Assembly (NCBI RefSeq): GCF_005083105.1
Contig: NZ_CP034885.1
Coordinates: 567,492-631,491, forward strand
Reading direction: 5' to 3'
Length of the DNA: 64,000 bases
Origin: Buchnera aphidicola (Aphis nerii)
Lineage (GTDB): Bacteria > Pseudomonadota > Gammaproteobacteria > Enterobacterales > Enterobacteriaceae
The notes beneath the pieces are model-generated. The model was not told where the DNA came from and searched no databases. It was given only the letters and a program-made list of their open reading frames with translations. Below are positions 34,522 through 49,316 of the stretch, piece after piece (positions within the stretch are counted from its first letter, which is position 1; every line of letters starts with the position of its first letter). The position numbers and the translations under genes are program-made.

Positions 34522-35426
34522 ATGATCTTTGATTGTTCTTACAAATGGATAATATTAGCTTTTTTATTTATAAATTTTCAAGATAAATCTCAAAAAAATA
34601 TTGATAACAAAATTATTAATACAGCAATATTTACAGAAAAAATAAAAAATTATCATACAAAAAATAATTTTTTTTTAATAAATTTAAAAATCATTTAATT
34701 AAAAAAACAAAAAAATTTACTATTTTAATAGACCCAGGACATGGTGGACAAGATCCTGGATCAATCGGACATAAAGGACTAAAAGAAAAAGAAATAAATT
34801 TAAAAATTGCTATTCAATTAAAGAAATTATTAGATAGTAATAAACTTTTTAATGCAATTTTAACACGTAATAATGACTCGTATTTATCTTTAAAAAAAAG
34901 AAGAAATTTTTTAAAATATCAACACGTAAGTTTATTATTATCAATTCATGTAGATTCTTCAAGTAAACAATATGTATCAGGAATATCAATATGGATTGTT
35001 TCAAACAGTAGAATGCATCGTGAAATTAACAATTTTATAAAAAATAATAAAGAAAAAATTCATTTTTCTAAAAATATTGAAAACATATTTAAAAATAGTA
35101 AAAATGATATATATTTCAAAAAAACTATTCTCGATTTACAATTTAATAATTTTCAAACTATGGAAATAAACTTATCAAATTATATGTTTGAAGAATTTAA
35201 AAAAGTTTTAAAAGTTCATAAAATACGATTAAATTATGCTAGTTTGGGAATATTGAGTTCTATAAATACACCTTCTATGCTAATAGAAACTGGATTTATC
35301 ACTAATTTTGAAGAAGAAAAAAAATTAAGAACAGTTTCCTATCAAAAAAAAGTTGCTAATGCTATTTATGTTTCATTAAAAAATTATTTTCAAAATAAAT
35401 CTAATCTTTTGACAAATATTGAGTAA
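34522..35426 (+). pseudogene. amiB: N-acetylmuramoyl-L-alanine amidase AmiB, split by a frameshift in a T9 run
   Basis: AmiB cleaves peptidoglycan cross-bridges at division. Frame one starts at ATG 34522 behind AAGGA, encodes a signal-peptide-like start (MIFDCSYKWIILAFLF) and stops at 34696. The amidase domain lies in another frame, open from 34668 to 35426. It has every zinc and catalytic residue: DPGHGG, the Glu in KEKEIN, LLLSIHVD and IETGFITN. The frames overlap at T9 (34668-34676); one extra T would join them. The AMIN domain of E. coli AmiB is absent. It may be a new pseudogene or a gene rescued by slippage, since the domain is otherwise unbroken. Confidence 0.85.
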
Positions 35427-35445
35427 GAATAATTAAATTTATTTT

Positions 35446-35475
35446 TAAGCATCAAAATACCTTTTAAGATGCTTA
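35446..35475. terminator. hairpin between convergent amiB and rpmE
   Basis: TAAGCATC at 35446-35453 pairs with GATGCTTA at 35468-35475, and AAAA/TTTT inside the loop can extend the stem. A T-run precedes the left arm, which suits termination of the leftward rpmE transcript; the rightward side has no clear U-tract. Confidence 0.6.
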
Positions 35476-35528
35476 GAACTTAAAATAATTATTTTAAATT
35501 ATAGATAAAAATCATAGCTTTATATCGT

Positions 35529-35738
35529 TTATTTTTTAGTCATTTTAAAACGTTTTTTAAATCTTTCAACACGTCCTCCAGTATCAATAATTCTTTGTTT
35601 TCCAGTATAAAATGGGTGACATTTTGCACATATATCTAGATTTAGATCATGATTAAGAGTTGAGAAAATTTCAATTTTATTACCACAAGAACAAATAGCT
35701 GTTATCTGATAATAATGAGGATGTATTTTTTTTTTCAT
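35529..35738 (-). CDS. rpmE: 50S ribosomal protein L31
   Basis: L31 bridges the subunits at the central protuberance. The 69-residue product (70 in E. coli) has the four zinc ligands Cys16, Cys18, Cys37 and Cys40 (CSC and CAKC) and the family block HPFYTGKQRIIDTGGRVERF. It is therefore the zinc-binding type. In E. coli priA lies between ftsN and rpmE; here priA is missing. Confidence 0.97.
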   Translation of the reverse strand: MKKKIHPHYYQITAICSCGNKIEIFSTLNHDLNLDICAKCHPFYTGKQRIIDTGGRVERFKKRFKMTKK

Positions 35739-35825
35739 AGAAAATTTTCCTAAATTATTAAAAATATTTATTCTATATATATAATTATTAGTATAATAAC
35801 AATTAATTTTTTAAAAAATAAAAAT

Positions 35826-36071
35826 ATGTATAAGCATAAAAATAAAATAAATTCGATGTATTTTAAAAAAAAAAAAATCAAATTTAATAAATATAATTTA
35901 TTCACTATCTTAGCACTAATAATAATTTTTTTTATTTTATTTAATATATTTTCAAAGAAAACAAATAATACACAAAAAAAGATATTTGTTCAAAATAAAG
36001 AAGATGAAAATACATTACCTGCTAAACCAAAAGAAAGATGGAAATATATTAAAAAATTAGAAAACTTATAA
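35826..36071 (+). CDS. ftsN: minimal cell-division protein FtsN (N-terminal part only)
   Basis: FtsN triggers septal peptidoglycan synthesis. E. coli FtsN has 319 residues; this one has 81. It keeps a basic cytoplasmic tail, one membrane helix (residues about 25-42) and a short periplasmic piece ending PAKPKERWKYIKKLENL. That piece matches the E. coli essential E segment, with Trp72, Tyr74 and Leu78 at the places of the critical Trp83, Tyr85 and Leu89. The coiled linker and SPOR domain are gone. An A13 run (35865-35877) codes for lysines near the start without breaking the frame. It lies upstream of hslV as in E. coli, which supports the call. Confidence 0.88.
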   Translation: MYKHKNKINSMYFKKKKIKFNKYNLFTILALIIIFFILFNIFSKKTNNTQKKIFVQNKEDENTLPAKPKERWKYIKKLENL

Positions 36072-47042: not shown

Positions 47043-47171
47043 TTAAACTCCTTATAGTAATTGGTTTTTTATAGAAAATTTTTTAAAAATTAAATAACAT
47101 TTAAAAAATTTTATTTAACATTAATAAATTAATTAAATAAATTTTAAGAAATACTAATGGAAACTAAAATA

Positions 47172-47504
47172 ATGTCTAATTCAATAAATAATTTTTATAA
47201 TTTAATCAATCATTTGTTTCTTAAAATTGAAGATAATTTAAATAGATATATTGACAAAATTGATTTTGATTATGAAATACAAGATTATGTAATTACTATT
47301 ACTTTTTCAAATAAAAGTTTAATTATAATTAATAAGCAAGAATTTTTACAACAAGTTTGGTTAGCAACAAAATTAAATGCATATCATTTTAATTATGATG
47401 CAGATAAATGGATTTGCAATCGTACTAATAAAGACTTTTGGGAAATATTTCAAGAATCTTTTTCTATACAATCTAGCAAAAATTTAATATTTTATAATAT
47501 TTAA
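47172..47504 (+). CDS. cyaY: frataxin homologue CyaY
   Basis: CyaY binds iron and tunes IscS-dependent cluster assembly. I start it at ATG 47172 (MSNSIN), which matches the E. coli length best (110 against 106 residues); an in-frame ATG at 47157 would add five residues. The family block VWLATKLNAYHFNYDADKWIC is intact, and acidic residues lie in the first helix. It works with the isc cluster at 57-62 kb and lies between dapF and hemC as in E. coli, where cyaA also lies. Confidence 0.93.
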   Translation: MSNSINNFYNLINHLFLKIEDNLNRYIDKIDFDYEIQDYVITITFSNKSLIIINKQEFLQQVWLATKLNAYHFNYDADKWICNRTNKDFWEIFQESFSIQSSKNLIFYNI

Positions 47505-47584
47505 AATACTTTTAATAATTTTAGATATATTATCACTAACTAGATATTTTATTATGATTTTTATAAAAAATATTTTAAACAAAT

Positions 47585-48535
47585 ATGAACAGTAATATGC
47601 AAAAAAAAATATTAAGAATTGCTACAAGAAAAAGTCCTTTAGCTTTAGAACAAACTAAATATGTTAAAAAAAAAATATTATCTTTATATCCAGATATGAA
47701 TATAAAATTGGTACCTATAGTTACACATGGAGACAATATTTTAAACAAATCACTTGCTAAAATAGGAGGAAAGGGACTTTTTATAAAAGAATTAGAATTT
47801 GCTTTGCTTGAAAACAGAGCAGATATTGCAATACACTCAATGAAAGATCTTCCTGTTCATATTACTAAAGAATTATCTCTAATTAGTATATGTAAAAGAG
47901 GTAATCCATTAGATTCATTAGTTTCTAATCATTATAAATCTATTAGTCAACTACCTAAAGGAGCAATAGTCGGAACATCAAGTTTAAGAAGACAATGTCA
48001 ATTAATAACGTATCGTCCAGATTTAATTATTTCCCCTTTAAGAGGAAATATAGAAACAAGAATAGCTAAATTAGATCAAGGCAAATATGACGCAATAATT
48101 TTAGCAGCTGAAGGACTAAATAGATTAAGTTTAAAACATCGGATTAGTCAAATTATACCTGCTGAACTATCACTTCCTTCATGTGGACAGGGTGCTATTG
48201 GTATACAATCTAGATTACATGATAAAAAAATATCATTTTTTTTATCACGCTTAAATCATATTAATACTTATATTGAAATAAATGCAGAACGTGCATTTTG
48301 TAAAACTTTAGAAGCAGGTTGTCAAATTCCAATTGGAAGCTATGCAATTCTTAAAAAAAATAAAATTTGGCTTAGAGGATTAGTTGGTTCGCCTGATGGC
48401 GGTCGCATATTAAAAGGTGAAAGAATTGGATATTATAATAGTGCAGAAGAAATGGCATATTCTTTAGCTAATGAATTACTAGGAAATGGCGCTCGGAAAA
48501 TTCTTGACGAAATTTATACTAAACAATTAAATTAA
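47585..48535 (+). CDS. hemC: hydroxymethylbilane synthase (porphobilinogen deaminase)
   Basis: HemC builds the linear tetrapyrrole of haem and sirohaem synthesis. The 316-residue product (313 in E. coli) has LRIATRKSPLAL, HSMKDLP and GTSSLRRQCQ. The dipyrromethane-binding cysteine lies in LEAGCQIPIGSY near residue 245. The start could also be the ATG four codons on. hemD follows after two bases but is frameshifted, so the next step may fail. Confidence 0.96.
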   Translation: MNSNMQKKILRIATRKSPLALEQTKYVKKKILSLYPDMNIKLVPIVTHGDNILNKSLAKIGGKGLFIKELEFALLENRADIAIHSMKDLPVHITKELSLISICKRGNPLDSLVSNHYKSISQLPKGAIVGTSSLRRQCQLITYRPDLIISPLRGNIETRIAKLDQGKYDAIILAAEGLNRLSLKHRISQIIPAELSLPSCGQGAIGIQSRLHDKKISFFLSRLNHINTYIEINAERAFCKTLEAGCQIPIGSYAILKKNKIWLRGLVGSPDGGRILKGERIGYYNSAEEMAYSLANELLGNGARKILDEIYTKQLN

Positions 48536-48537
48536 AA

Positions 48538-49316
48538 ATGAAAATATTAGTGACGAGACCTTCACCTGAAGGAGAAAAATTAGCAAAGATATTAAATTGT
48601 ATAGGAATTTTATCTTGGCATTTTCCTTTATTTAATTTTTTACCTAGTACAAGTTCAATAAGTTTATCAAAAAAAATTTGTGAATTATATAAATCAGATA
48701 TAATTCTAATTTTTTCTAAAAGATCTGTTTATTATACAAATCTATACTTAAACGAAAATAATTTACATTGGCCACTAAATCCAGATTATTATGCTATTGG
48801 AAATGGTACAGCTATTTTTTTTCAAAAATATGTTAAAAAAAAATTTTAGTTCCAGAAAATGAAGAAAATAGTGAAGCTTTATTAAAAATTTTATATAAAA
48901 AAAATATTAGTAAATCTAAAATTGTTTTGTTAAAAGGAGAAAATGGAAGAAATTTAGTAGAAATGAGTTTAAAAAATAAAAATTTTAATATTTCTGTTAT
49001 TGAATGTTATAAAAAAGTTTTTAAAATAATAAATAATCACTTAGAAATAAAAAAATGGCGTTCTTATAAAATAAATACATTAATAATAACTAGTGGTGAA
49101 GTTTTAAATAAATTGAATGAAACAATTGATATTTTAAATAAAAACGAATGGTTATTTAAATGTAAATTAATTGTTGTTGGTAACAGATTACATAAGATAG
49201 CTAAAGATATTGGTTGGAAAGATATTATTACGTCTAATTATGCGAATAATGAACATTTATTAAGTGTTATTAAAAGATGTAATTTTTATTCGGCGAAAGA
49301 GGATTTGAACCTCTGA
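48538..49316 (+). pseudogene. hemD: uroporphyrinogen-III synthase HemD, split by a frameshift in an A9 run
   Basis: HemD cyclises hydroxymethylbilane. The first frame (ATG 48538, MKILVTRPSPEGEKLAK) runs to a stop at 48847. The second frame continues from KKKILVPENEENSEALL through VLLKGENGR and LIITSGEVL to 49316. They meet at A9 (48835-48843); ten A would give one frame of about 259 codons, against 246 residues in E. coli. The last codons and stop lie inside the antisense tRNA-Pro gene. It may be a new pseudogene or be rescued by slippage at the A-run. Confidence 0.87.

Follow-up and report, generated by a model that had tools for sequence, protein, structure and literature searches.

Frame-split genes at the end of the Buchnera chromosome

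The stretch of DNA analysed here, hereafter the window, comprises the last 64 kb (positions 567492-631491) of the 631-kb chromosome of Buchnera aphidicola from Aphis nerii, and contains three genes, amiB, an orphan gene and hemD, in each of which the open frame changes at nine consecutive A or T. The features concerned are as follows, in window coordinates:

34522..34698, plus strand: amiB first frame, with a signal-peptide-like start (MIF..YKWII), 58 codons, extending beyond the T9 run
34668..34676, plus strand: T9 run in the amiB linker, at a site that is not fixed among relatives
34668..35426, plus strand: second frame of amiB, carrying the Amidase_3 catalytic domain (PF01520, 5.1e-46)
40806..42005, minus strand: second frame of the orphan gene, open over 399 codons, with no conserved start codon
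41936..42334, minus strand: orphan gene first frame (Yba3 in one public record), 132 codons
41984..41992, minus strand: orphan gene A9 run on the coding strand (T9 as read forward), meeting point of the frames, exactly A9 in 34/34 genus genomes having the gene
47585..48535, plus strand: hemC, unbroken, immediately 5' of hemD
48538..48849, plus strand: hemD first frame, N half (HEM4)
48835..48843, plus strand: A9 run, meeting point of the hemD frames
48837..49316, plus strand: second frame of hemD, C half (HEM4), open over 159 codons

The lengths and positions of the three runs given in the original prediction are exact, and each gene indeed consists of one open frame before its run and one other after it, with no further stops; the spans (905 bases in amiB, 1529 in the orphan gene and 779 in hemD) are all 2 modulo 3, and thus share one offset. 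Pfam searches placed Amidase_3 downstream of the amiB run and HEM4 on both hemD halves (8.3e-6, slightly below the curated cut-off, and 2e-10), and found no family above cut-off for the pieces of the orphan gene.

Because A/T runs of 8 or more are abundant in the window (165 in total, comprising 115 of length 8, 38 of length 9, 9 of length 10 and 3 longer), the shared run length is little evidence on its own. One common process behind all three genes, proposed from their equal run lengths within 15 kb, is not supported: runs of nine are common, the genes lie on both strands, and the amiB break has no fixed place or direction. What exceeds chance, judging from the comparisons below, is the conservation of breaks among relatives.

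A fixed run in the orphan gene yba3

The genus set comprised 36 genomes. From the coordinates of coaD we extracted 18-kb stretches from 32 relatives (33 including the window genome), and searched separately G018 and G024, in which coaD had no match, and G029, in which a weak coaD match lies elsewhere. The last of these is without coaD, hemD and yba3 yet possesses cysI and cysG; its stretch may be missing, and it was not scored as a loss.

The full-length orphan product is named Yba3 in one public record (P0017), and its named relatives belong to Buchnera strains from Aphis and further aphids; no sequence relative was found among solved structures. According to one paper, yba3 and yba4 are the sole orphan genes of Buchnera and are highly expressed (PMC1899503). 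Within the genus, searches for yba3 gave nothing in G024 and G029, and the junction is exactly A9 in each of the 34 genomes having the gene, 29 of which share the window's offset. Wherever the two frames overlap (31 genomes), the overlap contains no run of 8 or more besides this A9. The first frame, which was chosen as open, covers 3491 codons over these 31 genomes, with 389 and 671 stops in the other two frames. The copy in G015, the only one-frame copy seen in the genus, retains A9, and a second insertion or deletion downstream apparently merges its frames.

As a control, 32 runs of at least 8 were examined in 16 gene pieces of the window genome, for which a median of 22% of relatives keep the length. 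The best, an A8 in hslV, is kept in 30/32 (94%) and is the only one at 90% or above. The yba3 run is therefore kept better than any of the 32 control runs, although the gene evolves fast. Outside the genus the gene is organized differently, all 29 stretches being free of an overlapping first frame longer than 50 codons; the long frame itself begins M[S/T].. in 25 of these, and one of the remaining four (G262) has 4 stops in the yba3 search match.

These comparisons also bear on whether the splits are homopolymer errors of sequencing or assembly. Some technologies often misread runs of 9-10, and low coverage and the unreliability of 454 data over poly-A tracts have been noted (PMC3890641). Against this, the identical run recurs in dozens of genomes and yba3 is unsplit in other genera. 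Furthermore, among 13 other genes in the 33-genome set, 10 are without any frame break (330 gene-genome pairs) and the remainder have few (rsmJ 2, orn 7, hemC 1), in a scan that is blind to breaks near gene ends or in pieces giving no match. With so many genomes in agreement, such an error is very unlikely for hemD and yba3, its probability being close to negligible.

The hemD break and its age

In 23 of the 36 genus genomes, the hemD frames are offset at the run as in the window; in 7 the gene is in frame at the site and in 3 it has a different offset; of the remainder, the copy in G020 is decayed, G018 has no match and G029 is not judgeable. Among 22 broken genomes with the window's offset, the run length is 9 in 17, 10 in 4 and 7 in 1. 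The comparison of runs in other Buchnera strains that had been suggested thus reveals a widely shared break in hemD (23/36), a fixed run in yba3 (34/34) and no fixed site in amiB.

On a FastTree phylogeny of eight neighbouring genes, the broken state is present in both deep clades of the genus, and the in-frame state requires at least 7 changes (29 genomes counted). In other Buchnera-like genera, 11/13 genomes have hemD, in one frame in 9; the copies in G126 and G238 are broken at other sites, around residues 66-76 and 117-164. In enterobacterial HemD the junction site is without a lysine run. Since 23 of the 36 genomes share the break, in both deep clades, while outside copies are mostly unbroken and enterobacterial HemD lacks the lysine run, the hemD break most likely dates to the origin of the genus. 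The deep clades would correspond to the tribes Aphidini and Macrosiphini, the split of which has been fixed at 65 million years (PMC3164680).

The unbroken hemD of G028 matches HEM4 at 8.6e-26, and a structure model of its product matches the HemD structures 3mw8 and 4es6. In this model the residues of the run fall in a loop (97-102) with a helix before and a strand after, a position at which one additional lysine would probably be tolerated.

Constraint on hemD and the siroheme pathway

An alternative is that hemD and yba3 are pseudogenes in early decay, or that only one half of each matters. HemD has been called very rare in Buchnera, with a relatively recent loss in A. pisum, where the gene is described as pseudogenised (PMC3890641). 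The present counts speak against a rare and recently lost gene. We examined 69 columns invariant in ten outgroup sequences, for which the mean proportion of residues kept (in covered columns) was 72.8% in 22 broken genomes and 73.4% in 7 in-frame genomes, noting that the pieces were retrieved with the window's own halves, such that badly decayed parts drop out. True decay looks different, with 6/23 such residues kept in G020.

The ratio of nonsynonymous to synonymous substitution rates (dN/dS) of hemD in broken genomes was 0.35 for the N half and 0.40 for the C half, compared with 0.37 in rsmJ and 0.28 in dapF; the C half exceeds all six control genes and the N half five of the six (hemC, 0.12), and these values derive from non-independent pairs, for many of which dS is close to saturation. 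Together, these comparisons support purifying selection on both halves of hemD.

In yba3, dN/dS is approximately 1.0 in the N half (13/28 rows gave a match), as decay would have it, and 0.58 in the C half; the case for this gene consequently rests on its open frames and the conservation of its run. With hemD residues retained alike in broken and in-frame copies, and with breaks in both deep clades, the split of which may correspond to the tribal one at 65 million years, we give early decay only a slim chance. The suggestion that these genes are newly decayed is rejected for both: their breaks recur across the genus, and hemD appears constrained.

The state of hemD also agrees with the pattern of pathway loss. 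None of hemC, hemD, cysG and cysI was matched in G018 and all four are decayed in G020, which, to judge from gene content, are natural losses of sulfite reduction. In G001, cysI and cysG are split, two stops fall within the hemC match and hemD carries an additional break.

Proposed joining of the frames by transcriptional slippage

Transcriptional slippage, one of the readings offered in the original prediction, is the best explanation for hemD and yba3 because their second halves often have no start, stimulators of ribosomal frameshifting are absent, and runs of this length are described as prone to slippage in bacteria. We estimate a probability of roughly three in four that the two are working genes read over two frames, joined by RNA polymerase slippage at the nine-A run; the slippage itself and the full-length HemD and Yba3 are what we infer. 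Under this model, the polymerase would slip at the run to yield an mRNA pool of mixed run length, and in the fraction of altered length the frames would be joined, such that ordinary translation would produce full-length proteins alongside shorter first-frame products. Full-length HemD would then serve siroheme and sulfite reductase. Both breaks would most likely have arisen at about the origin of the genus, which comprises Buchnera of Aphidinae-type hosts, and been retained thereafter. Runs of 9 A or T have been described as giving efficient slippage in bacteria, and for some endosymbiont genes slippage is described as repairing 12-50% of the transcripts (PMC5009743). The Buchnera polymerase itself adds bases in A/T runs at a rate climbing with length (PMC5574713).

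The frames might instead be merged in translation, by a -1 shift of the ribosome on the A run (A AAA AAA). The phase of the run is right for a tandem slip in both genes, and dnaX of E. coli employs a related site (PMC5009743). We found no Shine-Dalgarno-like stimulator at any of 31 yba3 or 22 hemD sites, and downstream structure is absent on average, folding over 60 bases giving a mean z of -0.38 in yba3 and 0.02 in hemD, with one yba3 site of 31 below -2. Also, nine A are kept in 34/34 yba3 copies, where seven suffice for a ribosomal slip, and the three yba3 copies with the other offset retain A9 though slipping by -1 would leave their frames apart. A ribosomal mechanism is therefore unlikely.

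The halves could also be separate genes with their own starts, for example an ATT just past the yba3 run. Public records from several strains (P0016, P0019, P0020) place the beginning of the yba3 second half shortly beyond the run, the codon directly after the run is isoleucine in 17/31 genomes, and an ATG, GTG or TTG precedes the catalytic motif in 9 of 23 broken amiB genes. That yba3 codon, conversely, encodes T in the other 14 of the 31, and the first ATG lies 33-201 codons past the opening of the second frame. Of 22 broken hemD genes, 11 have no ATG in the second frame and 3 no ATG, GTG or TTG, and none of these three codons precedes the motif in 14 of the 23 amiB genes. Independent starts are accordingly highly improbable.

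Several observations weigh against the slippage interpretation, the strongest being that PMC5574713 reports no frame-restoring case seen. The break is not required, since five genomes have a full one-frame hemD ORF (open reading frame; G004, G019, G023, G026, G028); G005 has only A7 at the site; and there are extra hemD breaks in G001, G008, G010 and G030, of which G010 and G030 are in frame at the run itself and broken elsewhere. In yba3, three genomes have the other offset (G011, G032, G035), one is in frame (G015) and one has a disrupted first frame (G016). To these are added the dN/dS values of yba3, the position of hemD above nearly all controls, and the limits of the residue and rate comparisons given above.

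A more elaborate form of the slippage interpretation would make the yba3 A9 a programmed switch, with slippage setting the ratio of short to long Yba3. The long form, which would be EspG/VirA-like, could act on host trafficking via the flagellar-type export apparatus that Buchnera retains, and the same decoding in hemD would tune siroheme supply. We regard this extension as doubtful.

amiB as a looser case

In amiB, no fixed break site exists among relatives. Its N-terminal motif is recognisable; of 28 resolved genomes, 5 have it in the frame of the catalytic domain and 23 in a different one, offset as in the window in 13 and the other way in 10. Excluded from this count were G003, whose stretch is masked, G009, in which motif and domain share a frame with an intervening stop, G013, which has no motif, and G027 and G030 (first frame unidentified). 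The frame state changes at least 10 times on the tree, and the lesion in the window rests on one assembly. The gene is listed as generally retained in Macrosiphini Buchnera (PMC9116674), and dN/dS of the catalytic domain is 0.28 (32 rows). These results indicate an enzyme domain that is under selection, and a signal-peptide link that is broken at shifting places; slippage in either direction may serve such a gene.

Other frame breaks

A wider scan for conserved breaks compared 300 kb of the window genome's own chromosome with 320 kb of G009, and produced 136 neighbouring pairs changing frame. Among the pairs listed, one has runs in both genomes (at ~239 kb) and resembles a gene boundary, presumably murF/mraY. 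In the 18-kb set, the method recovered hemD as a positive control and missed yba3, because the N part of the latter is too divergent. Other positions on the own chromosome are broken relative to a single frame in G009, namely ~213364, 218847 and 234566, with A11 or mixed runs (the last in what we take to be a murC-like gene), and 272081 and 274853, without a run.

Among the control genes, orn has a common break near residues 145-155 in G008, G010, G014, G017 and G021, and one elsewhere in G007 and G025; the window copy (33747-34283) is unbroken. A short membrane-type ORF between rpmE and hslV (window 35826-36071), with no family above cut-off, carries an A13 run 13 codons past its start.

Comparison with known systems

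Rescue of frameshifts at poly(A) in endosymbionts was reportedly described by Tamas in 2008, and conserved, selected homopolymer frameshifts in Blochmannia reportedly by Wernegreen, Kauppinen and Degnan in 2010. Slippage rescue and selected ancient frameshifts being already known, the new part is the genus-wide fixation of one exact run. Some endosymbiont homopolymer frameshifts are conserved between species (PMC3017870), Aphidinae Buchnera have 8-18 homopolymeric frameshifts per genome (PMC3164680), and the annotators of Buchnera from Myzus persicae joined gene models split at poly-A tracts (PMC3890641). In the literature searched, of which coverage was partial, we encountered no description of conservation of the run in hemD or yba3.

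If our interpretation is correct, Buchnera hemD would turn from a recent loss into a gene maintained in two frames since the origin of the genus, the gap in siroheme synthesis would close on paper, and automated annotation would be miscounting working genes as dead. The strictly kept run of yba3 would further allow a stringent test for selection on slippage.

Of the systems that resemble these genes, the -1 ribosomal frameshift of E. coli dnaX shares an A-rich slip site and the same direction, but differs in its stimulators, which were not found at the hemD and yba3 sites. Slippage of the polymerase in a homopolymer likewise brings about the frame change in Thermus dnaX and Shigella mxiE (PMC5009743), the products of which have been measured, whereas those proposed here are predictions from sequence. 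Closest is the poly(A) frameshift rescue of endosymbionts, which has in common A/T runs in AT-rich symbiont genes and out-of-frame genes kept across species. There, mixed mRNA lengths accompany the runs; here the evidence is genomic, and one exact run is fixed in all 34 genus genomes having the gene, with unbroken copies in sister genera.

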